This document shows positions 856 to 46,621 of a DNA stretch of 46,621 nt, one piece after another (the stretch's first letter is position 1; the number at the start of each line of letters is the position of its first letter). A program made the position numbers and the translations under genes. The DNA comes from a virus. The DNA lies in IMG/VR virus record IMGVR_UViG_3300047089_000265, positions 1 through 46,621 of that record. One strand, 5' to 3'. The notes beneath the pieces were generated by a model, which saw only the letters and a program-made list of their open reading frames with translations, ran no database searches and was not told the origin of the DNA.

Positions 856-1721
856 GGTCGTTGCCAGCGGTTCAGCCGGTGCCGTATCAGATAGTCCGGC
901 AGGCGCATGCGCGTGACCGGCTGCCGCAGGGCCTCGTTGGCTCGCATGGTGGACAGTGCCCGCTGCGCCTCGGCCGCGGCCAGCTGCGCACCGTTGTAAT
1001 CCTTCTGCAGGCGCAGGATTTTGCTGGACACTCCTTCGACCAGCGCGGTAGCGGGCTCCATCCAGGCCGCAAAGGCCGCGCTGCCCGTTCCCGGCTGTAG
1101 CAGTTCTGCGGTGTAGTGAAACGGGATGCCGATGGACGCGTCCGGGCATGGGTACAGCTCCACCTGCATATCGGGAGGGGTATTGGTGTCGTCCATGAAC
1201 GACGCCCAGTTCATGGGAGTGCCGAAGGTCGGACGGCTGGGTGCGGACAGGTTCAGCTGGTCCCGCGACAGGCGCTCGAGCGGACCGAGGTCCGGTGTGG
1301 TGAAGGCGTTGTCCTCGAGGATGCGGCAGTCGGGCGGCATGGCGTAGATCGACTGGTAGACCGAATAACCTGCCAGCGTGTTGCCGGTGCCCTGGTAGGG
1401 ACGGTCGAGTATCCCGACAAGCGTATTGAGATAGGTGAACCCGTAGAACGCGTTGTCGCCGGTCACCCGAAACTGCCTGCCCGTCATGGCCCCCGTCCAC
1501 GAGCCTCCGGCCAGTGTGACGACGGTCGAGCCGGCCGTTACGGTAACGGTACCGGTCTGGTACGGCGCGACCGTTTGCAGGACCAGCGATTTCTCGAGCC
1601 GCGACCAGGCCAGCGATTGCAGGATTTCGCCGTACCTGTCGCTTATGTAGCCGTCCAAAACATCGGCATCGGTGCCGGGGTACTGCTTGAGCATGCGCAT
1701 GCGCAGCGTGCCGAGAGTCAT
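852..1721 (-). CDS. Phage neck/head-tail adaptor-like structural protein, 289 aa
   Basis: The chosen start is the ATG at 1721-1719, which overlaps the previous TGA (ATGA); the frame opens 24 codons earlier, but that part lies inside the neighbouring gene. The protein starts MTLGTLRMRMLKQY and continues with a helical segment resembling N-termini of podovirus head-tail adaptors. A beta-rich middle with TVTVTAGS-type strands follows, then a helical C-terminus. It lies in a translationally coupled run from capsid to spike. Adaptor function is inferred from position and general shape. I cannot name the family with certainty. Confidence 0.75.
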   Translation of the reverse strand: MTLGTLRMRMLKQYPGTDADVLDGYISDRYGEILQSLAWSRLEKSLVLQTVAPYQTGTVTVTAGSTVVTLAGGSWTGAMTGRQFRVTGDNAFYGFTYLNTLVGILDRPYQGTGNTLAGYSVYQSIYAMPPDCRILEDNAFTTPDLGPLERLSRDQLNLSAPSRPTFGTPMNWASFMDDTNTPPDMQVELYPCPDASIGIPFHYTAELLQPGTGSAAFAAWMEPATALVEGVSSKILRLQKDYNGAQLAAAEAQRALSTMRANEALRQPVTRMRLPDYLIRHRLNRWQRP

Positions 1722-2185
1722 CGTGCCTGCACCGATAGCGTATAGGTGATCGAGGCCGAGGCCACCAACTCGTAGCCCAGGTACGAGCCCCATGGCCCGT
1801 GCCGCACCAGTCCCGCGCCTAGCGTGCGGATGCCCTGCGCGGTTCCTGCCGTGTCAGTCTGCAGTACTGACGGGTCGTTAGCCGAGACACCGGGAGCAGC
1901 GCCCGTGACTGTGGCCGGTATGGTGTTCTGCGATACCAGCCGGGCCGTGAACGTTTTGGGGCCGGCCGTGACCTGCGGGAAATGCACGAGGTCCCAGCTG
2001 CCGTATCCGTCTCCGGTGGTCAGGTAGAAATCAGCAGTGCCCGATGCCGCGGTGACCTGCAGGGTAACGACCAGCTCGCTGAACCGGTCTAACTCCGGCT
2101 CGAACGCCGGCGCGGAAAAGTTGGCGGTCTTGGTAACGGCACTGGCGAGCAGGACATGGAATACATCTCGTTGGGTTCTTCCCAT
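1718..2185 (-). CDS. Structural protein of unknown family, 155 aa
   Basis: The protein is beta-rich, with many Thr, Ser, Ala and Gly residues and few charges, typical of small phage virion proteins. It starts MGRTQRDVFHVLL at an ATG with a GGAGGC-type ribosome site just upstream. Its stop overlaps the start of the adaptor-like gene, which implies coupled translation. It lies between a 169-residue virion protein and the adaptor, so a neck or capsid-completion role is likely. I do not recognise a family. Confidence 0.75.
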   Translation of the reverse strand: MGRTQRDVFHVLLASAVTKTANFSAPAFEPELDRFSELVVTLQVTAASGTADFYLTTGDGYGSWDLVHFPQVTAGPKTFTARLVSQNTIPATVTGAAPGVSANDPSVLQTDTAGTAQGIRTLGAGLVRHGPWGSYLGYELVASASITYTLSVQAR

Positions 2186-2234
2186 TTTGCCTCCGGTTTT
2201 GAGGGGCAGAAGCCGGTAAGCTCCTGCCCTTCTG

Positions 2235-2744
2235 CTAGCCCATGCGTTTGAACTCGCACGTGATGACCACGTTGGCCGCGGCGGTCGTCGCGCTGGGCGC
2301 CCACATAGCGAGTTCGTCGCCGTCCGCGAATTGCGAATTGGCAGCGGTCGCGTGGAGCACGCCGTTCTGGTTGGTGTCCGCCGGCTGCGTTAGATCGAAG
2401 GCCGTCGCCAGACACGGCAGGCCCGACGCCTTAGCCGTGCCGGACGGGACCTTCGTCGGCATGACGGTGCCGGCCGACCCAGCCGTCTCGTGCCGCTCCC
2501 GGGCCGAGGTAAGCTGCCAGACGGGACCGGTGGCGCTCGCGCCGGTCGGGTCCCGCGGAATGTTGATCGCCGGGAAAATGTAGACGCCGCCGTAATTCGT
2601 CGATGTGGCCGCGTCCGCTCCCTTCAGGACGAACTGAACGGTTAAGCGGGAGAGCCCGACCTCGCCTCCGCCTCTGCGCTGCGCGGTCGAGCCGGGAACC
2701 TGGGAGGTGCGTTGACTGCCGAAACGGGTTTCGCCTCTCGCCAT
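2235..2744 (-). CDS. Structural protein of unknown family, 169 aa
   Basis: It begins MARGETRFGSQRTSQVPG, a basic and polar N-terminus followed by a beta-rich body ending ITCEFKRMG. It starts three bases downstream of the major capsid stop and so belongs to the same late transcript. The length and position immediately after the capsid gene fit a minor capsid or head-completion protein. No motif allows a firmer call. Confidence 0.75.
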   Translation of the reverse strand: MARGETRFGSQRTSQVPGSTAQRRGGGEVGLSRLTVQFVLKGADAATSTNYGGVYIFPAINIPRDPTGASATGPVWQLTSARERHETAGSAGTVMPTKVPSGTAKASGLPCLATAFDLTQPADTNQNGVLHATAANSQFADGDELAMWAPSATTAAANVVITCEFKRMG

Positions 2745-2747
2745 AAC

Positions 2748-3671
2748 TTAGGCCCCCGGATTTCCATAGATCCCGCGCCAGCCGTAAAACCCGAAATCGG
2801 CGCGGTACCGCATGTACACGTAGCCGACCTCGTTCTTCTCGAGGTAATCGGACTTGGTGTAGGGCTGCTTGCGCCACAGCCACATGGTTTCGGTGTCGTT
2901 CGGAGGAGCGACTAAGAACCAGGCGTCCGGGTCGGTCAGGAACGACCAGATGATCGGGTCGATCGTGCCGCCGTTCTCGGTGTACTTGAAGGCGTTCGTT
3001 GCGCGGTTGGCGGTGTCCGAGCGGTCCTGAGATTTCAGGATCTCGTACGCGTTCCAGCGATTGCTGGGATGGATCAGCACGTTGGGAGTCGGCAAGAGCT
3101 GCAGAAAACCCTCGTGCGTTTTGGTGACTTCCCAGTCGGTCATGGCCAGCTCGAGAGAGGTGATGTCGAGGTCCGCGGCGGTGCCGAGGTTGGTCTGCGT
3201 GCCGCCGGCTTTCACTAACGGGTGGATGGCGGAGCACAGAGGCTGTCCGTCCGGGCCGGGGTAGTTGGTGCCGTCGAAGGCGTTGTTGTAGACGCTGGCT
3301 CCCTGGATCTCGATCGTCTGGTTGATCGAGTTGGCGAGAGCAACTGCGCGCTTCGAGATGATGCCGACCTGGTCGTCTTCGACCAGCTCCTGCGAGGCCG
3401 CGATGCCCAAGCCGAACTTGGCCGGCTTGAACGTCTTGTTGTAACCCTGTACGAAGGTATCTACCGGGGTGTCCGCGCCTTCGTTGATCTTGCTTGCGAG
3501 TCCTACGCCGGCCATCTGCGAGAACTGCTCGATCATGCGGTTGGTGGTGTCGGTGTTCAACAGCTTGGCGTATAGCTGCTGCTTCTGGTTGTAGGTTTTC
3601 CAGATCTTGGCGTTGAGCGCCGGCAGCATCGTGGTGTCGAAGAAGTCGGAGAAATTGCCGCGAATCATCAT
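2748..3671 (-). CDS. Major capsid protein, 307 aa
   Basis: The protein forms the icosahedral shell. Its sequence matches the Mu-like/HK97-fold major head subunit style. The N-terminal region (FFDTTMLPALNAKIW) is followed by a segment with TFKPAKFGLG and ASQELVEDD (roughly residues 80-100). An IQGASVYNNAF motif lies in the middle and a beta-rich domain ends in RADFGFYGWRGIYGN. The length is normal for the family. Two Met codons begin the frame; the first is used here. The gene sits between a decoration-like protein and minor structural proteins and downstream of the scaffold-like gene, the expected order. Confidence 0.85.
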   Translation of the reverse strand: MMIRGNFSDFFDTTMLPALNAKIWKTYNQKQQLYAKLLNTDTTNRMIEQFSQMAGVGLASKINEGADTPVDTFVQGYNKTFKPAKFGLGIAASQELVEDDQVGIISKRAVALANSINQTIEIQGASVYNNAFDGTNYPGPDGQPLCSAIHPLVKAGGTQTNLGTAADLDITSLELAMTDWEVTKTHEGFLQLLPTPNVLIHPSNRWNAYEILKSQDRSDTANRATNAFKYTENGGTIDPIIWSFLTDPDAWFLVAPPNDTETMWLWRKQPYTKSDYLEKNEVGYVYMRYRADFGFYGWRGIYGNPGA

Positions 3672-4362: not shown

Positions 4363-4539
4363 CTAGTTACTAACTTCGCGTAATTCGCTGGCTTCGGCTT
4401 TTAACTGCTGCTTCAGTTTGGCCTCTGCACAACGGGCACAGAACTTACCGCAGCTTCCGTTCCAGCGGTCAAAGACTTCTTTGCTGGCGCGTTTGGGACA
4501 CGCCGCGCACTTGACCTGAAGATATTTGAGATAGGCCAC
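4363..4539 (-). CDS. Small zinc-binding protein, 58 aa
   Basis: The downstream part of a longer open frame looks like a genuine protein. It has two Cys pairs (KCAACPK and KFCARCAE) that could bind one zinc, followed by a charged helix (AKLKQQLKAEASEL). The part upstream of the GTG at 4539 is translated 12-bp repeat array and is not credible as protein. There is no good ribosome site, so the start is uncertain; reading through the array from 4803 (146 aa) is a less likely alternative. Function is unknown. Zinc-binding mini-proteins recur in this genome. Confidence 0.5.
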   Translation of the reverse strand: MAYLKYLQVKCAACPKRASKEVFDRWNGSCGKFCARCAEAKLKQQLKAEASELREVSN

Positions 4540-4553
4540 AACGTCGTTCTTGA

Positions 4554-4870
4554 CCCGCAGCTTCCGGTGCGTGCGTTCTACCGTGCTCCCGCAGCTTCCA
4601 GACTTCGCAAACCCCGCAGCTTCCGAGCCAATCCGGCGGCACCGCAGCTTCCACGGTGACGGGCATGCCGCAGCTTCCCGCACATCGCAAAGGCGTCCCG
4701 CAGCTTCCCGGCCAGTTGGGCACCACCCGCAGCTTCTACCGGTGAACTGCCCCGCAGCTTCCGCGACCAGGCGGGCCGCATGCCGTAGCTTCCCGGTGGC
4801 CAAGCGAACAGCCCGCAGCTTCCGGCAATTCGGTCCGCCTGCCCGCAGCTTCCTGTCTTCCGAACCTGGT
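4554..4870 (-). repeat. Array A, main block: 11 copies of the 12-bp motif
   Basis: Plus-strand reading gives CCCGCAGCTTCC (minus: GGAAGCTGCGGG) eleven times, with single-base variants such as CCGTAGCTTCC. Separating segments are unrelated in sequence and 13-22 bases long, about 17 on average. The block directly abuts structured element A on the side expected if the element is read first on the minus strand. It lies inside the late structural operon between a scaffold-side gene and the decoration gene. All three minus frames stay open across much of it, producing spurious ORFs. Confidence 0.9.
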
Positions 4871-5025
4871 CCCGCAGCCGCCGGTAAAAATTCAGTGGAA
4901 GCTTACGCGGCTGCCGCGGCCTAATGCGCGGATATCGCGTACGTTTAGCAGCTTTCCGCGGACGTTCGGGCCGGCAAGCGTGCCCGACGGTGACCGCGCT
5001 GCGCCTGACGGTGGCGCTCAAGTCC
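4871..5025 (-). ncRNA. Structured array-associated element, copy A
   Basis: This copy matches copies at 28071-28221, 20514-20660 and 43471-43613. On the minus strand it begins with a GCGCC-ACCGTCA-GGCGC hairpin (5017-5001) and ends GGCGGCTGCGGG, which resembles the array repeat. An inverted near-copy of the repeat lies at 4897-4910. GCAGCCGC and GCGGCTGC can form an 8-bp stem around it. Helix conservation with base-pair compensation in copy C suggests a functional RNA. Strand is inferred from array position. Confidence 0.65.
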
Positions 5026-5033
5026 TATTCTGC

Positions 5034-5065
5034 GGGTTGTGGGTTATGGGGTGATGGGTGATGGG
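5034..5065 (+). repeat. G-tract with 7-bp period, potential G-quadruplex
   Basis: GGG tracts recur every 7-8 bases (GGGTTGT GGGTTAT GGGGTGAT GGGTGAT GGG), five tracts in all. It lies 8 bases from element A. Element B has the same kind of tract 12 bases away, so the two appear to travel together. Confidence 0.75.
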
Positions 5066-5084
5066 CAGGCCACCCTGTGCATAT

Positions 5085-5213
5085 CCCGCAGCTTCCATTT
5101 GTTGCAGCATCCCGCAGCTTCCAGGCACAAACACCCGACGTGTGCCCGCAGCTTCCTGATCAAGGTCATCTACCCCGCGGCTTCCGCTATACCCGCATTG
5201 TCCCGCAGCTTCC
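5085..5213 (-). repeat. Array A, leader-side block: five repeats
   Basis: Five copies of the motif, one of them degenerate (CCCGCGGCTTCC), lie on the other side of element A and its G-tract, in the same orientation as the main block. The last copy ends 13 bases before the stop of the 5227-5823 gene. Separating segments are 14-27 bases long. Confidence 0.85.
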
Positions 5214-10287: not shown

Positions 10288-10344
10288 TGGTTTCTCCTTT
10301 TCTAGGTCAAATTCCACGATGTCGACATGTCGTCGGCTGCGTTG

Positions 10345-10374
10345 CCCAACACCCAGCACCCAAGACCCAGCACC
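10345..10374 (-). repeat. C-tract with 7-bp period (G-rich on minus strand)
   Basis: Five CCC tracts occur every 7 bases, separated by AACA, AGCA, AAGA and AGCA. The tract lies between the portal stop and the 114-residue gene. It is the same repeat family as the tracts at 5034, 13275, 25264, 27337, 28234 and 38028, and could form a G-quadruplex on the minus strand. Confidence 0.75.
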
Positions 10375-10378
10375 CGCT

Positions 10379-13112: not shown

Positions 13113-13304
13113 ATGCCCGAACACAACTACCGGCTCAAACTGCTTAAGATGGTCGCCGACGGAAAGGTGCCGACAAGCGGACTCTGGCACACCAATATCC
13201 GGCACGATGACTGGTGCAACTCGTTCTGCGGAGGGTACTGCAATTGCGATCCCGATATTCAGTTCGTTGAAGAACCCAACACCCAGAACCCAAAACCCAA
13301 CTAG
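13113..13304 (+). CDS. Small Cys-rich plus-strand protein, 63 aa
   Basis: It starts MPEHNYRLKLLKMVADGK and contains a Cys cluster WCNSFCGGYCNCDP that could bind metal. The C-terminal PNTQNPKPN is encoded by a C-tract repeat, so the repeat has been absorbed into the gene end. Its TAG stop and the terL TAG stop share the palindrome CTAG at 13301-13304. Confidence 0.5.
   Translation: MPEHNYRLKLLKMVADGKVPTSGLWHTNIRHDDWCNSFCGGYCNCDPDIQFVEEPNTQNPKPN
13275..13298 (-). repeat. C-tract with 7-bp period inside the end of a gene
   Basis: Four CCC tracts are spaced by AACA, AGAA and AAAA. It overlaps the last codons of the 13113-13304 ORF and is translated as Thr-Gln-Asn-Pro-Lys-Pro. Confidence 0.75.
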
Positions 13305-15052
13305 TCATCGTCAGCCTGCCGCTTCGGCCTGCGGTAGTTAGTGCTTTCCCACTGCTTGTACTCGTCGACCGCGCGCCGCTTGCGGTACGCAAAGGCCCGC
13401 CGCGCCTTCGGCAGGCCGACGACAGCCAGGGCCACTCCGAACACGTCGTCATCGTGCTTGATGCCCTCTTCCCTGCCGTTCGGCTTGCGGACGAACTGCC
13501 GCAGCTGCTGCATGGTGGCCGCGTCGTGCAGCTTGATGCTGCCTTCGCGGATCGCCGTGTCGAGAGCACTGATCAGAACGGGCCGCAGCACCGTGTTGGT
13601 GTCGAAGCCTAATTCCTGCAGCAAGGCCGGCCGCCGGTCGGACGGGTCGCGCTCCGCACTGTAGATCAGCTCGAGCGGATAGCCGCCCTCGATCTCGAGC
13701 AGATGCCCGATAACCGCTTTGCCGACAGCCTTCTGCTCCGGCGTGATGTACGCCCACTGGTAAAACCGTGCCAGCCAGTACACCCGTTCGGCCCACGGTC
13801 TCGGCTCGTACCGTTCCGAGATCTTGGCGACCTCTTCGCCGGTATCTGCGTCCAGGATCGTCATGGAACAGTAATCCGGATCCGATACGCCGTCCTTGGC
13901 GCCGGGGTCAATCCCCTCGGCATGGTCTGCGCCGGCGGCGTAGTTCCTGCCCTTCTCCGGCAGCTTGTAGATGGCCAGCTCGCCGCGGCCGTCCTCCGAC
14001 TGGATGAACTGCACCCGCTTCTCGATGCCGACCGTGACCACTTCCAGGCGGCCGCGCACCGGGTTCTGCACCGTCGGCATCCTCGACAAAGCAGCCATGT
14101 CGAAGATCGTTCTGCCGGCACCTTGGAAGCACTCCTGCGGGTTGGCGCCGTGCTCCTGCCGGAACCGCTGCAGCTTGCCTTCGCAGGACGTTTCCAGGAC
14201 AAAGCGGCGCCAGGCCAGCTGTTCGAGGTTCAGGTTGTACTTGCTGCGCTCTTCCTGCTCGAGTCCGGACAGCGTGCGTTGAAACGCGCCCGGGTCTTTG
14301 TAGCCGAGCCGTTCCGGAGACATGCGGTTTTCCGGGTGCTCGTGCCAGCCGAAGAAAACAAAGGCCCATCCGGACTTGCCGGACATGGCCAGCTGGCACA
14401 GGTCGTAGAAGTCCCCGCCCTCACCCGACGGCGTCGATTCCACGATCACGCCCGAGTCCGGACTGTTCGGAACCCGCTGCATCAGGCCGGTCATCACCGC
14501 GCCTAATGCCCGGTAGAACGCAGCCTCGGACAGTTGCGCCCAGTTGAACGGAGCAGAACGCCCGATGTCTACGTTGTTCGAGGTGCCGACCAGGATCGAC
14601 GAGCCGTTGTTCCAGCGCAGGTGCTGGTCGGTGTCTTTGTCCAGCTTCGGCAGCTCCACCGCGCAGTTCCATTCCGCGCCGTACGGATTGTCGCTATACG
14701 ACTTGATGTACTGCTCGTAATATTCGAAAACCAGATCCGCGTGCTTCTGCGAGTCGGCCAGGATCAGGGCACGCCGGCCGGGGAAAAACGGCACGCGCCG
14801 GAAGATCTCGGTGGCCGCCGAGCTGGACATCCAGACCTGCGAGGCTTTCAGGACTACTTGCCGCACAGGGACGCCGGCCAGTTCCTGCTTGCGGATCGAG
14901 GCGTTCAGCTTCAGGCCGGCCGCACTGGCCCGGTACGGTACCGCGATGCCTTCCTTGTTGCGGATCTGCAGGTGGTCGCAGAACTTCGCGTGGTTCGCGA
15001 AACCCTGGATCATCTCCTGCATCTCTGCGTGGGCGAGCGGGGCGGCGGTCAT
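13301..15052 (-). CDS. Terminase large subunit, 583 aa
   Basis: Packaging motor ATPase and nuclease. A Walker-A-like segment lies at about residues 68-77 (LKASQVWMSS), a deviant P-loop of the KxxQxxxS kind seen in many phage terminases. A Walker-B-like strand lies near 170-176 (NWAQLSEAAF), with the usual acidic pair replaced by SE. The coupling motif VIVESTPSGEGGDFY follows. The C-terminal RNase H-like nuclease begins at YAAGADHAEGIDPG with further acids in DGVSDPDY. Length is normal. The start at ATG 15052 lacks a clear ribosome site, and a downstream Met (MQEMIQGF) is possible. Confidence 0.9.
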   Translation of the reverse strand: MTAAPLAHAEMQEMIQGFANHAKFCDHLQIRNKEGIAVPYRASAAGLKLNASIRKQELAGVPVRQVVLKASQVWMSSSAATEIFRRVPFFPGRRALILADSQKHADLVFEYYEQYIKSYSDNPYGAEWNCAVELPKLDKDTDQHLRWNNGSSILVGTSNNVDIGRSAPFNWAQLSEAAFYRALGAVMTGLMQRVPNSPDSGVIVESTPSGEGGDFYDLCQLAMSGKSGWAFVFFGWHEHPENRMSPERLGYKDPGAFQRTLSGLEQEERSKYNLNLEQLAWRRFVLETSCEGKLQRFRQEHGANPQECFQGAGRTIFDMAALSRMPTVQNPVRGRLEVVTVGIEKRVQFIQSEDGRGELAIYKLPEKGRNYAAGADHAEGIDPGAKDGVSDPDYCSMTILDADTGEEVAKISERYEPRPWAERVYWLARFYQWAYITPEQKAVGKAVIGHLLEIEGGYPLELIYSAERDPSDRRPALLQELGFDTNTVLRPVLISALDTAIREGSIKLHDAATMQQLRQFVRKPNGREEGIKHDDDVFGVALAVVGLPKARRAFAYRKRRAVDEYKQWESTNYRRPKRQADDD

Positions 15053-20388: not shown

Positions 20389-20487
20389 CCCGCAGCTTCC
20401 GCGCACGCGCGAGCGGCTACGCGGGCAGCGGCCGGCTTTACCGCACCAGCGCATCCCGCAGCTTCCGCGCACGCGCGAGCAGCTACG
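20389..20487 (-). repeat. Array C: two long-form repeats
   Basis: Two copies start at 20389 and 20455. Each is the 12-bp motif extended on the plus strand by GCGCACGCGCGAGC and an (A/G)GCTAC block, giving a unit of about 32 bp, separated by about 33 unrelated bases. The extended form also occurs at 27952 and 28006. On either strand the unit can fold as an imperfect hairpin. Element C follows at 20514. Confidence 0.8.
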
Positions 20488-20513
20488 GCCCAATCCGAAC
20501 TGACTGAACTGCC

Positions 20514-20660
20514 CCCGCAGCTGGCGCTAAAAACAAAGTGGAAGCCCACGGGGCTGCCGCGCGGCGAACCGCGAATATCCCGTGCGTTTAACAGCCTTCC
20601 GCGAGCGGCTGGGCCGGTAAACGTACCCGCCGGTGATCGCGCTGGGCTTGTCGGTAGCCC
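20514..20660 (-). ncRNA. Structured array-associated element, copy C (divergent)
   Basis: The most divergent of the four copies. The terminal hairpin that reads GCGCC/GGCGC in the others is GGGCT-TGTCGGT-AGCCC here (20644-20660), so two base pairs changed on both sides together. The inverted repeat-like segment (20540-20553) reads GGAAGCCCACGGGG, and the flanking stem is shorter (GCAGC/GCTGC). The helical compensation is the best single line of evidence for conserved RNA structure. Strand is inferred from the array. Confidence 0.6.
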
Positions 20661-20673
20661 AAAATGGTCGAAC

Positions 20674-26961: not shown

Positions 26962-27329
26962 GCGAACACAAAAACATCAGGCTGCTGGTCCAGGAAGACG
27001 GCGGCACGGTATGGCGCACGCTGAAAGGTGAGTTGCTGGTGGGCGCGCTGACCGATGACTGCCGCCCGCTTCTTTCATACCAGGCCGATTATGAGCAGCG
27101 CGAACGCTGGGGGTTTGATATGTGGTACGTCATCCGCAGCACCTCCGGTAAGCTGGTGGTCTACCGCCAGCCGATGCTCAACGAAGATGGGCCTCCAACC
27201 GTTACTGTCTACGATTCCTTCGAAGCTATGCAGCCGCACGTACCGCCCAACATCTACAACACGGCGATGGAGAAGGCCGGTCTGAAGCCGCCGCCGCAGT
27301 TTCCGGAACTGCCACTCGAAGGCGTGTGA
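26958..27329 (+). CDS. Unknown protein, 123 aa
   Basis: It starts MSEHKNIRLLVQEDGG. It has several beta strands (GTVWRTLKGELLVGAL, WYVIRSTSGKLVVYRQP) and a helical C-terminus (PNIYNTAMEKAGLKPP). No family is assigned. It is co-transcribed with the next HTH gene through overlapping stop and start. Confidence 0.6.
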   Translation: MSEHKNIRLLVQEDGGTVWRTLKGELLVGALTDDCRPLLSYQADYEQRERWGFDMWYVIRSTSGKLVVYRQPMLNEDGPPTVTVYDSFEAMQPHVPPNIYNTAMEKAGLKPPPQFPELPLEGV

Positions 27330-27862
27330 TGCCGCGCCCAGCACCCAAAACCCAGAACCCAGCACCCTCCGCTTGGGCTAAAACCGGCAAAACGAAAGCT
27401 GAAGCCGCCTCGCTCCTCGGCATCTCGGAGAAAGCCGTAGAGCGAGCCTCGCAGCGCGCGGTCGATCCGATCCGCGCCGCCTGGCGCCAGGAACCGGGCA
27501 AGCGGTCTTACCGGGTTTATCACCCGGAAGACCTGGCCAAGCTGCGCCGTGCCCTGCCCCGGCAGGTAACCGGCGAGTTGGTGCCGACCGCTACAACTGC
27601 CGTTGCCGCCATAAAAACCGCCCTAGGTTCGTCCAACGGCACCAAACTGACAGTCCAGGTCCTTCCGGCGCCGCGACGGAGGCCGGTGATGACCGTTGCC
27701 GAGGTAGCCGAGGAGCTGGGAGTTTCCCGCACGATGGTCAGGCGAGCCATCGCCATTGGCGATTTGGCGAGTTTTCGGGACGGGCACGTACGGGTGTTCC
27801 GCAGCGCCGCCGAGGCTTGGCTGGCGCGGCTGGAAGCGGCTTGTCGACAGGGTGGGTTCTAG
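27329..27862 (+). CDS. MerR/excisionase-type HTH protein, 177 aa
   Basis: The N-terminus is encoded by a C-tract (PRPAPKTQNPAPS). A first HTH-like segment lies at about residues 20-45 (TKAEAASLLGISEKAVERASQRA). A second clear helix-turn-helix lies at about 118-145 (MTVAEVAEELGVSRTMVRRAIAIGDL), of the excisionase/DNA-binding domain type with a wing. Such a protein could be an excisionase, repressor or transposition-like regulator. It is the last gene of the rightward operon, facing the TnpB-like gene and array B. Confidence 0.72.
   Translation: MPRPAPKTQNPAPSAWAKTGKTKAEAASLLGISEKAVERASQRAVDPIRAAWRQEPGKRSYRVYHPEDLAKLRRALPRQVTGELVPTATTAVAAIKTALGSSNGTKLTVQVLPAPRRRPVMTVAEVAEELGVSRTMVRRAIAIGDLASFRDGHVRVFRSAAEAWLARLEAACRQGGF
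27337..27367 (-). repeat. C-tract with 7-bp period at a gene start
   Basis: Five CCC tracts are spaced by AGCA, AAAA, AGAA and AGCA. It encodes part of the N-terminus of the HTH protein (Pro-Lys-Thr-Gln-Asn-Pro). Confidence 0.75.
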
Positions 27863-27898
27863 GGCAACGTACACAACATACACAACATACACAGGGGG

Positions 27899-28038
27899 CC
27901 CGCAGCTTCCACGCGCGCGCGAACGGCTAGTCGATTAGATCGTAGCCTCTACCCGCAGCTTCCGCGCGCGTGCGAGCGGCTACGGAAGGTTGCCCGCAAT
28001 GCGTACCCGCAGCTTCCGCGCGCGTGCGAGCGGCTACG
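27899..28038 (-). repeat. Array B, distal block: three repeats, long form
   Basis: Copies begin at 27899, 27952 and 28006, spaced 53 and 54 bp, the most regular spacing of any block. The last two carry the extension GCGCGCGTGCGAGC plus GGCTACG, giving a unit of about 32 bp; the first has a diverged extension. Between 27863 and 27898 there is also a short tandem (ACACAACAT three times). Read on the minus strand, the block follows element B. Confidence 0.85.
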
Positions 28039-28070
28039 CGGTTTCTGCGGTTTTCTTACGCGCAGATAGC

Positions 28071-28221
28071 CCCGCAGCCGCCGGTAAATTCAGTGGAAGC
28101 TTACGCGGCTGCTGCAGTTGCCTGCAGATATCGCGTACGTTTAGCAGCTTTCCGGGAGCGTTCAGGCCGGTAAACGTGCCTGACGGTGATCCCGCTGCGC
28201 CTGACGGTGGCGCTCAAGTCC
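28071..28221 (-). ncRNA. Structured array-associated element, copy B
   Basis: Nearly identical in key segments to copy A. It has the GCGCC/GGCGC hairpin at 28197-28213, a 9-bp helix GTACGTTTA/TAAACGTGC (28135-28143 with 28171-28179, one wobble) and an inverted repeat-like segment GGAAGCTTACGCGG (28095-28108). An 8-bp stem GCAGCCGC/GCGGCTGC flanks the last. It sits inside array B, downstream of the TnpB-like gene on the same strand. It is a candidate guide-scaffold or trans-acting RNA; function is inferred. Confidence 0.7.
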
Positions 28222-28233
28222 AATATACGCTGC

Positions 28234-28265
28234 GGGTGTTGGGTTATGGGGTGTTGGGTTTTGGG
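28234..28265 (+). repeat. G-tract with 7-bp period next to element B
   Basis: GGG tracts recur every 7-8 bases (GGGTGTT GGGTTAT GGGGTGTT GGGTTTT GGG). The order element, G-tract, repeats is the same as at copy A. Confidence 0.75.
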
Positions 28266-28276
28266 CAGGCCGATTA

Positions 28277-28635
28277 CCCGTAGCTTCCCTTTCAGGATGA
28301 AAGCATCCCGCAGCTTCCATGTCTGCCCCGCAGCTTCCAACCTCGCACGCCGCCCGCAGCTTCCTCACGTCGAAGCCTTCCCGCAGCTTCCATTCCCTGT
28401 TCCGCGCAGCTTTAGACCGCGACCGACTCCCGCAGCTTCCAAAATTCCAGTCTGAACATTGGCATCGATCCCGCAGCTTCCTCTTCGTCTATCCCCGCAG
28501 CTTCCAGCAGATGCCCTGCCCCATCCCGCAGCTTCCGCAACCTCGATGTAACGCCCGCAGCTTCCGCCCATCACCTATACCCGCAGCTTCCACCTTCTCG
28601 TCCCGCAGCTTCCACCTTCTCATTCCGTAGCTTCC
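28277..28635 (-). repeat. Array B, main block: 13-14 repeats beside the TnpB-like gene
   Basis: Thirteen good copies and one degenerate copy (GCGCAGCTTT) of the 12-bp motif. Intervening segments range from 8 to 29 bases and are otherwise unrelated, except that the last two are almost the same (ACCTTCTCGT, ACCTTCTCAT), a recent unit duplication. The copy at 28624-28635 lies inside the final codons of the 28620-29831 gene. The block could therefore be the 3' part of that gene's transcript. Confidence 0.9.
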
Positions 28636-29831
28636 GGTTCCGGCTCCGCTGCCGGTGCCTCGCCGGCCGCATGCTCGAACTCCAGACCGGCCGCGCCCAC
28701 TTTTTCCTGGATCAGCGCCCGGAGCCTGTACCAGGGTAACCCTTCGCAAAAACTCTGGTCGCTGTCATCGTACACTACCGCGCTGAAGCGCCGCCGTGCC
28801 GCATAGCCTGCCAGTTGCGCGGCAATCTCATGCGTTGCCGAGTCCATGCGGTTGCGATACTTGGCCGCTGCCGCCTCGCGCCGTTGCGCGAACGCCGGTA
28901 CCGGCCGCTGCTCGTATTTCTGATCATCGGACCATCGATCGAGCTGCTTGCGATGCTCTGCGCTCCACCTGCGCAGGTGGTCGCCGTTGTACGTCCACAG
29001 CTTTTCGTCGTTCAAATTTACCGCGACCAACAGCGAGTCTTTGGACGTGTGTACCCGGAGTGTCGACAGCCTGACCGGTGACACCGCAGCCTGCCTGGGC
29101 AGCCACGCGACCATCTTGCACATCAGGACTGGCGGGTTACCGCGCTGGTACAGGGCGGCCTCGCCGGCGATCGCCTCCCCGCGGGCCAGCAGGCGCACCG
29201 AGGCCAGCTGCCGCCGGAACTGCGAGCCGCTCTTCAGCCGCATTTCCCGCCGCGCCTCGCCGATGCGGATCGACAATATCGGCTTGTCTTCTTCGATCCG
29301 GACGGCCCAGCTCTGGTTGTGGACGGGCACCGGGATCGGATACCGGAAGCTCGGCAGGGAGTTGGCTCGGGTCCAGATGACGGGGTAGCGGATCGCCCGG
29401 TATTTGCGGGTGATGGCCTGCTCGAGCGCGACCACGGTAGCCGGCGACAGTGCTGGAAACTCGGCACGTAAGGCCGGGTACAGGTAGGTTCTTGCCATCG
29501 GCGGCATTTTCTCTTCGCCCGGATGCCGGCGCACGTCGGTTGCGTACAGCTCCGTAATGATGTAGTTGGCGGCTCGTGTAGTTTCCCGCCAGGCCGCTTT
29601 CACGTCGTCTCGCAGTTCCTTCCAGGTACAGCCGATCGGGGCTGCTACCGGCATGCTGACGGCGCGGAGCAGGTATCGCTTGTTCCAGCAGTCGGCGCAG
29701 TACGTTTCATCCTCGTGGGCTTTCCAGCCGCGGGGCGTGCGCGGCTTGTTGGCCGGCGTGAGTTTGGTTTTGCAGGTTTTGCGGCAGTCCGTACAGACCG
29801 CTTCGGTTGCTTCGGGGGTCAAGACTGGCAT
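28620..29831 (-). CDS. TnpB/Cas12-like RuvC-fold protein, probably nuclease-impaired, 403 aa
   Basis: The start is ATG 29831 (MPVLTPEATEAVC); an earlier frame crosses a terminator and palindrome and is rejected. Cys13, Cys16, Cys45 and Cys48 form an N-terminal zinc knuckle. Helices at about residues 70-145 are followed by SLPSFRYPIPVPVHNQ (158-173), a WED-like segment of TnpB and small Cas12 proteins. The RuvC-I strand reads VAVNLN (269-274), with Asn where the family has Asp. RuvC-II reads AVVYDD (351-356), where Glu is usual, followed by LPWYRLRALIQEKVGAAG (365-382). The usual C-terminal zinc ribbon and third Asp are missing. It is next to array B and the structured element, with no transposon ends or TnpA. 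An RNA-guided binder is my inference; the family call is moderate. Confidence 0.6.
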   Translation of the reverse strand: MPVLTPEATEAVCTDCRKTCKTKLTPANKPRTPRGWKAHEDETYCADCWNKRYLLRAVSMPVAAPIGCTWKELRDDVKAAWRETTRAANYIITELYATDVRRHPGEEKMPPMARTYLYPALRAEFPALSPATVVALEQAITRKYRAIRYPVIWTRANSLPSFRYPIPVPVHNQSWAVRIEEDKPILSIRIGEARREMRLKSGSQFRRQLASVRLLARGEAIAGEAALYQRGNPPVLMCKMVAWLPRQAAVSPVRLSTLRVHTSKDSLLVAVNLNDEKLWTYNGDHLRRWSAEHRKQLDRWSDDQKYEQRPVPAFAQRREAAAAKYRNRMDSATHEIAAQLAGYAARRRFSAVVYDDSDQSFCEGLPWYRLRALIQEKVGAAGLEFEHAAGEAPAAEPEPEATE

Positions 29832-37540: not shown

Positions 37541-38060
37541 AAAATGCCTCCTTGAACAACGCAAAAGGCACCATGTCGACAAGCTGTCCGCCGCGCATGG
37601 TGTGCCTGCTGTAGTGCCCTTCCGGAACCGCGCCCAGCCTTCTCAGAAGCGCGATGATGGGCCGGTTATCCGCAAACATGCACAGCGCCAGTTTGCTGAT
37701 GCCGCTGTCGAACATTTCGCCGATGACTTGGCGGAGAGCCGGCACCGTCGTCTGGTGTCCCCACAGCTCCCGCTTGAACAGGCAGTGAAACGTGCCCAGT
37801 ACCGGATTCCATCTCTCGAAGCTGACCAGCCCGCCCAGCTCGCCGTCGCGGTAAATCGCCCAGGTCTTCACCCGCTGAAACTCCGCGAGAGAGTGCTCCA
37901 CAAACTCGTCGAGCGTTTGCGGGCCGAAGTCGTCCGCTACCCGGTCGCGGAACGTCTGGATCCAGGCCCACACGCGGGGCAGGGACTGGACCGGAAACGG
38001 AGACACTACGGTGACCGCGGCGGTTGTGGGTTGTGGGTTTTGGGTTATGGATGCAGCCAT
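37296..38060 (-). CDS. GNAT-like acetyltransferase with overlapping tail, 254 aa
   Basis: It starts MAASITQNPQPTT at ATG 38060, right at a G-tract repeat. Residues about 25-170 have the GNAT pattern: an N-terminal helix, KTWAIYRDGELGGLVSF, then VPALRQVIGEMFDSGISKLALCMFADNRPIIALLRRLGA (the acetyl-CoA and C-terminal strands). The last 80 residues lie in a frame overlapping the downstream gene by 245 bp and are Gly/Asp/Ala-rich, probably unconstrained. Such enzymes occur in phage tail regions and may acetylate or sense substrates; the role is unknown. Confidence 0.7.
   Translation of the reverse strand: MAASITQNPQPTTAAVTVVSPFPVQSLPRVWAWIQTFRDRVADDFGPQTLDEFVEHSLAEFQRVKTWAIYRDGELGGLVSFERWNPVLGTFHCLFKRELWGHQTTVPALRQVIGEMFDSGISKLALCMFADNRPIIALLRRLGAVPEGHYSRHTMRGGQLVDMVPFALFKEAFYAVEGSSGRDRGSGLDHRRDSGRAGEDHHIDSDAQLDAGNAAAAGPAEAVQLEPADGPVGGDGADSGGQPGSDQPPVRVGP
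38028..38050 (+). repeat. G-tract with 7-bp period at a gene start
   Basis: GGGTTGT GGGTTTT GGGTTAT GG occurs at the start of the acetyltransferase gene and is translated there into Thr-Gln-Asn-Pro-Gln-Pro on the opposite strand. It is the seventh member of the dispersed tract family. Confidence 0.75.
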
Positions 38061-39018: not shown

Positions 39019-39918
39019 ATGGCTGCAAACAAGCTTACCCCAGAAGAGAAAAGAGCCCGCAAGGCCGAGTACATGCGCAGCTGGAACAAAGCGCATCCTG
39101 AAAAGATAAGGGAAGCTCGGCGCAAGCATAAAGAGAGAGCCACGCCAGAGAGCAAGGCGAGAACCACGGAGCGGCAGAATGAGTGGATGCGCCAATGGCG
39201 CAAGGCAAATCCCGAAAAGAACAAGGAAGCTCAGCGCAAACATTATGAGCAGCATGCTGAGGCGTGCCGTGAACACTCTCGCCAGTGGCGCAAGGCGAAT
39301 CTCGAAAAGGCGAAGGAAGCTGTGCGCAAATATTACGAGCTGCATGCTGAGACGCTCCGTGAGGGCGCTCGCCAATGGCGGAAGGCCAATCCCGAAAAGA
39401 AACGCCAGTCCAGCCTTGCGTGGCGTGCAGCCAACCTTGAGAGGGACCGAGACAACAGCCGAAGGTGGCGCGAAGAAAATCGCGAGACATTGATCGAAAA
39501 AGAGCGCCAGAGGTATCAGCGGATTCGCGACGAGAAGGTGGAATATAGCCGCCAGTGGCGCAAGGCTAATCCTGAGCGTCTTCGAGAGTCCATTCGCGAA
39601 TATAAGCGGAACAATCCAGAGAAAGTAGAACAGCAGTATCGGAATCGACGGGCTCGTAGGGTCGGCGCGACCGGCAGGCACACACCGGCAGACATCGCCC
39701 TTCTGTTTGAGCAGCAGGGCGGCAAGTGCCACGCCTGTAAGGTCGCTCTGATCAGGAAAGGCAAAGGTAAATTTCACATCGATCACGTAATGCCGTTAGC
39801 TCTCGGAGGTTCTAACGGTCCTGAAAATCTGCAGTTGCTGTGCCCTCCATGCAATCACAGCAAGCACTGCAAAGACCCGTACGAATGGGCCGCTGAACAG
39901 GGCAGGCTGTTCGCCTAA
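39019..39918 (+). CDS. Freestanding HNH endonuclease with repeated coiled-coil units, 299 aa
   Basis: The C-terminal 70 residues form an HNH domain: CHACKVALIRKGKGKFHIDHVMPLALGG, then NLQLLCPPCNHSKHCKDP. The catalytic His is in IDHV and zinc-binding Cys pairs flank it. The N-terminal 200 residues are about eight copies of a 20-24-residue unit such as RQWRKANPEKxKEAxRKH, highly charged and helical, likely a DNA-binding spacer. It is inserted on the plus strand among leftward tail genes, as mobile homing endonuclease genes often are. GAGGA lies about ten bases upstream of its ATG. Confidence 0.88.
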   Translation: MAANKLTPEEKRARKAEYMRSWNKAHPEKIREARRKHKERATPESKARTTERQNEWMRQWRKANPEKNKEAQRKHYEQHAEACREHSRQWRKANLEKAKEAVRKYYELHAETLREGARQWRKANPEKKRQSSLAWRAANLERDRDNSRRWREENRETLIEKERQRYQRIRDEKVEYSRQWRKANPERLRESIREYKRNNPEKVEQQYRNRRARRVGATGRHTPADIALLFEQQGGKCHACKVALIRKGKGKFHIDHVMPLALGGSNGPENLQLLCPPCNHSKHCKDPYEWAAEQGRLFA

Positions 39919-43386: not shown

Positions 43387-43427
43387 GGAAGCTGCGGGTA
43401 TGACGACAAAGACCAGGAAGCTACGGG
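43387..43427 (+). repeat. Array D, leader-side repeats
   Basis: Two copies (43387-43398 GGAAGCTGCGGG and 43416-43427 GGAAGCTACGGG) lie upstream of element D when read on the plus strand. Confidence 0.8.
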
Positions 43428-43470
43428 GCGAGCCGTGGGTTATCATTTGAACTCGTGCTAAATTTCTTTT

Positions 43471-43613
43471 GCGCCACCGTCAGGCGCAGCGCGGTCACCG
43501 GCGGATACGTTTACCGGTCCAGCCGTCCGCGGAAAGCTGCAAAACGTACGGGATATCTGCAGGCCACTGCGGCAGCCCCGTAAGCTTCCACTGAATTAAC
43601 CGGCGGCTGCGGG
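43471..43613 (+). ncRNA. Structured array-associated element, copy D
   Basis: Opposite orientation to the other three copies. It contains the GCGCC/GGCGC hairpin (43471-43487), the inverted repeat-like segment CCCCGTAAGCTTCC (43576-43589) and ends CGGCGGCTGCGGG. Its direction is against the leftward tail genes on both sides, so transcription of this copy would be antisense to the operon. Confidence 0.65.
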
Positions 43614-43654
43614 TCGCTCGTCGTCGTGCGGGCGTGGGTCATGGAGCATCAGCC

Positions 43655-43863
43655 GGAAGCTGCGGGTTGCCCCCGGATTGCCGGAAGCTGCGGGTGAGCG
43701 CCGCACAAGCCGGAAGCTGCGGGTGCGGCATGATTCTGATCACCCGGAAGCTGCGGTGGACCGCCAGCCGGGAAGCTACGGCATGCCCGCCACCGTGGAA
43801 GCTGCGGGGCTGATGTCAGTCGTCCGGAAGCTGCGGGATGCGCGAGAATTGGAAAGCTGCGGG
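43655..43863 (+). repeat. Array D, main block: eight repeats
   Basis: Eight copies of GGAAGCTGCGGG or single-base variants, separated by unrelated 13-22-base segments. The block ends 14 bases before the stop of the 43878-44564 gene. Reading on the plus strand, the order is two repeats, element D, then this block, mirroring array A. Confidence 0.9.
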
Positions 43864-44567: not shown

Positions 44568-46621
44568 TTAGTGGCAGTTAAACTGAGTGCCGGTGAACAC
44601 GGCGATCGCGCCCGTGCCGCTACCTGTGCATGGCGCGCTGTTCGGAGTGCCGTCGGTTATGTACAGTTCGATGCCCGCCTGTAAGCCGGGTATGCCGGCG
44701 ACGATGTTGGCCATCGCGGTCTTGTACAGAAAGCCGGGAGTCAGAGGCGCGGAAGCCAGGGCACGCTGGCAGAGTCCGGATGTCGTACCGGAAACGATGT
44801 TGCCCGCCTCGGCGATCTGCGCATTGTTGCCGCAGACTACCGCATAGTTGCTGCCCCCCTGAATGATAATATTCCCGACCAGGTTCATGCCGGTCGAGGC
44901 GTTGATCTGCACGGTAGGCAGGGTCGCGGAGTTCTGGTTGAACTGATTGGCTACCAGGGTCAGATTATTCTGGGTGATCTGCGTCGATCCGACCTGACTG
45001 CCGATCATGGTGTTGAGCTGCCCGGAGATCGGGAAGTGCGCCGCAAAGTTATTGGACTGCGACGTATTGCCGCCCACTCCGCAGGAGAGCGCATTCACGT
45101 TCACTAGACGGTTTTGGGTGCCTCCGATGTAGAGACACCTTCCCTGATTCTGGAAGAACAGCACGTCGGTGATATTGATGTTGGTTGCCGAGGAATCCAG
45201 CTCGATGCCGATGGCCGCTGTGTTGGTAGCCCACGGCGCACCGCTGTACGGCATACCTTCGTACTGGATCGTGACGTGATTGATCTGGCCGCCGTACCCG
45301 TTGATGTAGAGGCCGCCCGAATAATCGTTGTTCAAGTAACTAAGATGTCCGCCAAGCCAAAAGCCGCTCTGCGCTGCGTGAATGCCCCATCCTCCGTTGC
45401 CGAAAGTCTGCACGCCTCCGAACCAGACACCACCGTTGCCGGTGTGGGTCGAGTTATTGACATATTCGATGCCGTGCTGGCCCGCAGCTACGGTGATGAT
45501 GTCGACAAAGTGTCCCTGACCCCCTCCGAGCGTGATGTTGTCGAGCACCGAACCGGCCACGATCAGGTTGTCGGCTTGGCCGTTGCCGCCTCCGCCGTCC
45601 ACATAGAGCCCCTGGTAGAATTTGCTGATACTGACATCGTTGATCGACCAGTTATTGGCCAGTGCCGGATTGCCCGAGCAGCCGCCGCCGCAGGTGTGGA
45701 TGCCGATGGACGAGGTCGGCGTGCCCACCTGGCTGAGCATGCAGCCTCCAGACATCGAAAAGCCGTCAAACACCACGTTGAACATGCTGCCGGTCAGCGC
45801 ATTGTATTTCAGCTGCACGCCTGCCGTGCCGTAGCTGTAGGCCGCTCCGCAGTTCACGCTGCCGACGTTGGGCGGGGTGGTGGGCGCATAGAAATTGTAG
45901 GTACCCGCCGTAGGCGCAAGAAACGGGCCGAGCGTCCAGGCCTCGGCGAATCCTGCCGATGCGCTGTTGATGGCGTAAGGGCCGGAGTGCGCGTTAGGAC
46001 AGTTCAGAATCATCTGCCCGTTGACCTGTCCCGAGGTGCCCGTGCCGCCGGTGATCGCGCAGGCCTCCGACGGGCCGGTGCCGCCCGACACGTACACGTT
46101 GTGCAGGTAGTCCGAGCCGTTCATGCCGATCGGAACCACGGGGAACGTGACCGTAGTGTTGCCCGCGATCAGCGGTGTGGACGGCTTGACCGCCGCGAAG
46201 TTGTACAGGTTCGGGTTGAGCGTCGATACCACCGCGGCCAGGTTGGTCATGTTCGGGCCGAGTACGCTTTCGATGGACTTGATCTCCGCAGTCGTCGAGT
46301 TGAAATTCCAGGCCGTGATGAAGGCCGAGACAATCGCGCCGGCGTTGTGACCGGCAGCCGCCGTGTGATTGAAGCCGCGCCCGTCCACGTTCGGGCAGCT
46401 CGAGTGCCCGACGTTCATAGTGGAGCCGACAATCGAACAGACCGAGATCTGCTCGTTATCGATCGTGACCAGTTCGTTGGCGACAAACTTAGCCGCGGTC
46501 ACTACGGTGAACGAGGTTGCCGTCGTGTTCAACGGCGTCGTGAGCACGGTCTGGGCATTGTCGGTGGCCACCTTCATGTTCTGATCGGTGGCCACCGCGC
46601 CCGGGAACACGGCAGTCTGAG
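44568..46621 (-). CDS. Tail-spike gene, main body: right-handed beta-helix protein (continues into 127-1)
   Basis: Together with 1-127 this encodes about 705 residues. After the signal peptide comes a short N-terminal beta domain with TAAKFVANELVTIDNEQI and CPNVDGRGFNHTAAAGHNAG. A long series of beta-helix rungs follows, with Asn, Gly and Ser stacks (for example YQGLYVDGGGGNGQADNLIVAG, NNLTLVANQFNQ). These are characteristic of pectate-lyase-like spikes that bind or cleave host surface polysaccharide. More than ten Cys residues are present, unusual for phage spikes and in keeping with secretion. Possible catalytic residues cannot be assigned. The C-terminus ends FTGTQFNCH. Confidence 0.8.
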   Translation of the reverse strand, partial: QTAVFPGAVATDQNMKVATDNAQTVLTTPLNTTATSFTVVTAAKFVANELVTIDNEQISVCSIVGSTMNVGHSSCPNVDGRGFNHTAAAGHNAGAIVSAFITAWNFNSTTAEIKSIESVLGPNMTNLAAVVSTLNPNLYNFAAVKPSTPLIAGNTTVTFPVVPIGMNGSDYLHNVYVSGGTGPSEACAITGGTGTSGQVNGQMILNCPNAHSGPYAINSASAGFAEAWTLGPFLAPTAGTYNFYAPTTPPNVGSVNCGAAYSYGTAGVQLKYNALTGSMFNVVFDGFSMSGGCMLSQVGTPTSSIGIHTCGGGCSGNPALANNWSINDVSISKFYQGLYVDGGGGNGQADNLIVAGSVLDNITLGGGQGHFVDIITVAAGQHGIEYVNNSTHTGNGGVWFGGVQTFGNGGWGIHAAQSGFWLGGHLSYLNNDYSGGLYINGYGGQINHVTIQYEGMPYSGAPWATNTAAIGIELDSSATNINITDVLFFQNQGRCLYIGGTQNRLVNVNALSCGVGGNTSQSNNFAAHFPISGQLNTMIGSQVGSTQITQNNLTLVANQFNQNSATLPTVQINASTGMNLVGNIIIQGGSNYAVVCGNNAQIAEAGNIVSGTTSGLCQRALASAPLTPGFLYKTAMANIVAGIPGLQAGIELYITDGTPNSAPCTGSGTGAIAVFTGTQFNCH
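46559..46621. repeat. Right copy of terminal overlap
   Basis: Matches positions 1-63 with five substitutions in frame. The two versions of the segment read VAPAHNKNVATD and VATDQNMKVATD in the spike protein, so the differences change amino acids. Confidence 0.85.

Follow-up and report, generated by a model that had tools for sequence, protein, structure and literature searches.

A candidate phage-borne type V CRISPR system with truncated repeats and a Cas12f-like effector apparently unable to cut

Introduction

The viral record IMGVR_UViG_3300047089_000265 of IMG/VR, analysed here over its whole stretch of 46,621 nucleotides (nt; positions 1 to 46,621, hereafter the window), carries between positions 27952 and 28038 a repeat whose likeness to those of clustered regularly interspaced short palindromic repeats (CRISPR) had been pointed out in an earlier note, along with arrays of a shorter form of the same repeat. 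This locus raises the question of whether the two forms share a common origin, whether they belong to a CRISPR system and, if so, what such a system would do in a phage. Our analysis suggests that the arrays, four structured RNA elements (cores) and a gene at 28620-29831 probably constitute a single phage-borne type V CRISPR system related to subtype V-F, a judgement that extends to the best explanation as a whole, including its RNA-guided binding and silencing, rather than cutting, of DNA.

Results

Full-length and truncated repeats in the window

Arrays B and C contain two and three copies, respectively, of the long form of the repeat, five in all with lengths of 32-36 nt, in agreement with the 32-nt unit originally described for these two arrays. 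The segment in which it was first noticed contains two of them (27952-27983 and 28006-28037, spaced 54 nt), and the third copy of array C begins 53 nt upstream, at 27899 (tandem repeat score 157). The regular period of 53-54 nt is, however, a property of array C only, whereas the copies in array B, at 20389 and 20455, are spaced 66 nt. The best copies, those at 20389 and 28006, extend to 36 nt and end in CTACGCGG. At full length, the repeats, all on the minus strand, comprise C1 (27899-27934), the most diverged copy, C2 (27952-27987), the site of the original observation, C3 (28006-28041), which has 36 nt and reads CCGCGTAGCCGCTCGCACGCGCGCGGAAGCTGCGGG on the effector strand, B1 (20389-20424) and B2 (20455-20490).

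The 11-mer CCGCAGCTTCC occurs 48 times in the window at no more than one mismatch, compared with 2.0 occurrences expected from shuffled sequences (largest value, 5). All but three of these occurrences (10869, 24102 and 27294) fall in four intergenic clusters, A (4447-5213), B (20389-20490), C (27899-28636) and D (43387-43863), the last of which is inverted. In effector-strand orientation, the short form GGAAGCTGCGGG is identical to the last, spacer-proximal 12 nt of the long repeat; it constitutes most of the copies outside the long-form set, giving a tally of five full repeats and about 37 short copies, and the exact 12-mer is found 27 times on one strand and six times on the other. There is one repeat type in these arrays. 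The spacers had initially been estimated at about 22-33 nt; they measure about 17-30 nt next to the five long copies and are irregular, at 6-29 nt, between the short ones. Short-form array C (28277-28636, minus strand), with 8-29 nt spacers between its 12-nt GGAAGCTGCGGG units, lies between core C and the effector gene, and the short-form arrays A (4447-5213, minus strand) and D (43387-43863, plus strand) flank cores A and D, respectively, on both sides. Immediately before array C, positions 27865-27893 hold three tandem copies of CAACATACA.

A Cas12f-type gene adjoins array C

An open reading frame next to array C resembled a TnpB or Cas12 protein by eye. The gene (28620-29831, minus strand) encodes 403 amino acids from its likely Met start, its frame being open to 29939, and profiles as well as the predicted fold assign its product to the Cas12f type. 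Compared with the PADLOC profile of Cas12f, the window protein scores an E value of 2.4e-6 and the best member of its family one of 8.9e-11, and the family profile matches the Cas12f entry 9nzq of the PDB (E 1.1e-5). An AlphaFold model built from four sequences reached a predicted local distance difference test score (pLDDT) of 74.6, whereas a single-sequence model (pLDDT 36) was of no use. The best Foldseek match of the former is AsCas12f (E 5e-15), with a Z score of 20.8 and a root-mean-square deviation of 7.8 over 313 residues (span 54-391).

The protein has an N-terminal CxxC..CxxC zinc motif, and its key residues are conserved. In the profile alignment, however, the position of the RuvC-I Asp is occupied by Thr (Ile in the homolog L244) and that of the RuvC-II Glu by Asp, and the protein terminates before RuvC-III and the C-terminal zinc ribbon, both of which are absent. 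Its Cas12f fold and sequence relationship place it with type V-F; because the DED residues of the three RuvC motifs are replaced and RuvC-III and the zinc ribbon are missing, we file it as Cas12f-related and not as the effector of an active V-F system. Searches of GenBank phages and PLSDB plasmids returned no match to the effector, and 149 Planctomycetota genomes yielded one marginal hit (E 9.4e-4, 25% identity) interrupted by two stops.

Related loci carry CRISPR arrays

Among Acidobacteriota genomes and viral contigs, homologs of the effector were found in seven other phage records, an Acidobacteriota contig and an Acidobacteriota chromosome, which share a design of effector, structured RNA and array. 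Of the two contigs initially attributed to an Acidobacteriota genome, one (G369:C112) and the viral contig G565 are a single record. Six arrays could be resolved beside these homologs, each with its own repeat of 34-36 nt and spacers of about 34-40 nt, the repeat sequences differing from system to system. The array of L243 comprises 13 identical 36-nt repeats with spacers mostly of 35-38 nt, those of L254 and L255 six repeats each, that of L240 four, that of G564 fifteen with a degenerate distal end, and that of G565 six degenerate ones; repeats of 25-40 nt with unique spacers are thus present without doubt in L243, L254, L255, L240 and G564. A Cas12f-type gene adjoins array C in the window as well as the homologous arrays, and the long form of the window agrees with their repeats in length, ends and position, which lends support to the CRISPR likeness noted at the outset.

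The earlier note had also suggested comparing long and short forms across relatives. This comparison proved informative for L243, where 14 full repeats are accompanied by five short copies, of which four lie at the distal array end. Since the short form corresponds exactly to the 12 spacer-proximal nt and occurs together with full repeats both in the window and in L243, we take the short arrays to have arisen from the full array through truncation and expansion, as the note had supposed. A search of 84,980 genomes for the paired 12-mer returned 113 stretches; none of those inspected is a comparable array, and most look like coding repeats or chance.

The closest relative of the effector, at about 60% identity, is found in G566 (L256:1079-1835, L258:19240-19336), which resembles the window in having several cores and not one core with a regular array. 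In G564, the effector gene crosses contig ends and its frame breaks there, probably owing to an assembly join. Apart from one weak match in G566, the other window proteins tested had no match in the records of the related systems, and the module thus appears, from these comparisons, to move between unrelated phages.

A conserved structured RNA in each cluster

Each of the four clusters further contains a structured element of about 150 nt, conserved among all four, which the earlier note had not mentioned. Core C (28066-28218, minus strand; covariance model score 177 bits), supported by covariation, is a tracr-like (trans-activating CRISPR RNA-like) structured RNA that runs into a full repeat; further copies are core A (4866-5022, minus strand; 189.6 bits), core B (20509-20665, minus strand; 173.8 bits) and the inverted core D (43466-43618, plus strand; 173 bits). 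Among the four, 11 of 47 predicted pairs have changed on both sides and are still paired, a number equalled in none of 500 shuffles and reaching 0-1 in slid controls, which argues that a structured RNA is under selection at all four places.

A covariance model trained on the window located the core immediately following the effector at seven loci elsewhere, namely in L243, L240, L241, L255 (as L263), G564 (as L247), G565 (as L250/L251) and G566, the last with several copies; the two or three weakest matches listed for this model are probably due to chance. In L254, the core was missed by the model, yet a structured stretch sits in the same place. In an alignment of 18 core matches, fitted to the structure, 38 of 40 pairs show compensatory changes, and 94.5% of the cells are paired, compared with 66% in shuffles, none of 500 being as good. 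Related loci thus have a structured, covarying core after the effector, where type V-F systems carry their tracrRNA between effector and array. Rfam contained no match to the core at the gathering score, and only chance-level matches below it, and when searched as a DNA pattern in other viral contigs, the core motif returned, the same phage aside, only chance matches in coding sequence. Short GGGTTNTGGGT-like runs occur at 5035-5067, 28226-28268, 10331-10375, 13261-13305, 27323-27367 and 38022-38057, some of them adjoining cores A and C.

Spacer matches

Two full-length spacers of relatives match their own phage genome perfectly, spacer 5 of L254 close to the beginning of a methyltransferase-like gene and spacer 1 of L255 in a small open reading frame upstream of the effector. 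Such matches would not be expected to be tolerated by a cutting enzyme and therefore count for a loss of catalysis. The window spacers show a weak excess of 12-nt matches to their own genome (p about 0.01). On the Acidobacteriota chromosome (L241:8411-9790), the effector and a single core are followed by a guide-like sequence and then by a TonB-receptor-type gene, and no array was found at this locus. The first 15 nt of the guide-like sequence recur, preceded by TTG, within a second gene of the TonB-receptor type on this contig, a single case found after looking, in a search that tested one 16-nt word. Gene functions in L241 and G568 were named from sequence motifs by eye.

The phage genome

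The window belongs to a tailed phage, as indicated by its terminase and major head protein. Between its two ends (1-63 and 46559-46621) the similarity is 92%, and another contig of this phage (G001) spans their junction; the genome is therefore nearly complete, and either circular or terminally redundant. A search for tRNA found none, and a 90-nt tandem repeat at 39190-39401 probably lies within a coding region. The 12-mer is absent from 13 contigs with a related terminase (65-67% identity), among them L143, discussed below.

Discussion

On the effector strand, the locus is organized as a cas12f-like gene, a tracr-like RNA that leads directly into a repeat, and then the spacers. If the locus is expressed, the Cas12f-like protein would take up guide RNAs produced there and be guided to the DNA they match. 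Because its nuclease site is gone, the effector would bind rather than cut, and it would most likely block the transcription of chosen genes. The combination of a dead nuclease with guides, and the parallels to Cas12m2 and phage TldR, point to silencing as the probable use of this binding, a role proposed here from sequence and predicted structure. The full repeats would represent the ancestral 36-nt form, and the 12-nt short form retains only the portion adjoining the spacer. A more far-reaching scenario, possible if rather doubtful, is that the phage runs a programmable silencing network in which a nuclease-dead Cas12f is combined with tens of mini guides, each composed of a 12-nt handle and about 10-20 nt of spacer, and with four dispersed scaffold RNAs that provide the remainder of the guide in trans, the repeat having been cut to a third with its function kept.

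The window system shares its predicted effector fold, size class, RNA scaffold beside the effector gene and repeats of about 36 nt with the V-F systems of AsCas12f, OsCas12f and Un1Cas12f1. It differs from them in its replaced RuvC-I Asp and RuvC-II Glu, the lack of RuvC-III and the C-terminal zinc ribbon, the N-terminal position of its zinc motif, and its location in a phage without Cas1. Nuclease-dead Cas12f (PDB 9n9c and 9n9m, named dCas12f) matches the window effector in fold (E 1.5e-13). A natural dCas12f works in RNA-guided transcription with a sigma factor, whereas the family described here sits in phages beside multi-spacer arrays. TldR proteins are phage-encoded, TnpB-like, nuclease-dead repressors that act as transcription factors (PMC13418256). 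By its sequence, the window effector would likewise be a member of the TnpB/Cas12 superfamily that is carried by a phage, has a dead nuclease site and binds DNA under RNA guidance; TldR is, however, derived from TnpB and uses single guide RNAs, unlike the Cas12f-type protein and multi-spacer arrays found here. Cas12m2 of type V-M is a Cas12 effector without double-stranded DNA cleavage that silences by binding (PMC10442227), but it belongs to a different subtype, is larger (596 amino acids), and is bacterial and not phage-borne.

Several observations weigh against the proposed system. Irregular spacers of 6-29 nt beside 12-nt repeats match no known functional form of CRISPR, no target was found for the window guides, whose seed matches to their own genome are near chance level, and both self-matching spacers of the relatives lack the T-rich flank expected of Cas12f. 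The effector on its own has no significant match in Pfam or the PDB, and confidence in its AlphaFold model is moderate. Cas1 (PF01867) is absent from the window and the seven phage records, at least two of them fragmentary, while control genomes were positive. Finally, the first fold of the four cores was made on the opposite strand, and the choice of strand rests on gene order and the wider alignment.

Some of these points would equally suit a module that is CRISPR by descent but dead in this phage, its short forms being relics of repeat recombination and its cores duplicated debris, as the short irregular spacers, the guides without targets and the decay of distal repeats in G564 and L243 might suggest. 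We nevertheless consider this unlikely, since neutral decay would blur the 12-mer, of which 27 exact copies occur on one strand and six on the other, and since pairing has been preserved in all four cores through compensatory changes and the effector has kept an open frame with conserved key residues. The near-invariance of the 12-mer amid drifting spacers, together with the intergenic position of the clusters, would also be expected of DNA-binding sites (iterons, operators or stoperators) for a phage protein such as the helix-turn-helix protein encoded at 27326-27862, the resemblance to CRISPR then being accidental. This explanation is highly improbable, given that the 12-mer forms the terminal part of a 36-nt repeat and adjoins a Cas12f-type gene, and that a related layout with unrelated repeat sequences recurs in other phages.

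A further type of phage-borne RNA-guided array is that of TIGR-Tas systems, which combine a Nop-domain protein with two alternating repeats of 8-12 nt and 9-nt spacers (PMC12045711), and one such locus is carried by L143, a phage relative with a 66% identical terminase. Its array has two alternating 10-nt repeats with 8-nt spacers, and the gene between the arrays matches TasH (E 3e-8). That the window arrays belong to this system is nearly inconceivable: a Tas profile with 44 members detects no such protein in the window, and one repeat type with irregular spacers departs from the alternating repeats and 9-nt spacers of TIGR arrays (PMC12045711), leading us to reject this identity. In L143 itself (905-3240), the Tas homolog is flanked by a period-18 array of the form GAGCGAGCCG-N8-GAGAGAACCG-N8, and arrays of this type with Tas are present in about 40 viral loci (including L166-L225).

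A type V CRISPR system thus remains our preferred interpretation of the window. Together with its relatives, it would define a family of phage-borne CRISPR systems with a Cas12f-type effector apparently unable to cut, which extends over eight phage records and Acidobacteriota genomes and includes some self-matching spacers. This family may be a natural case of phages regulating genes under RNA guidance with real CRISPR arrays and may represent a step between the single-guide repressors of the TldR type and CRISPR immunity. Moreover, its truncated repeats raise the question of how little of the repeat a type V guide needs.
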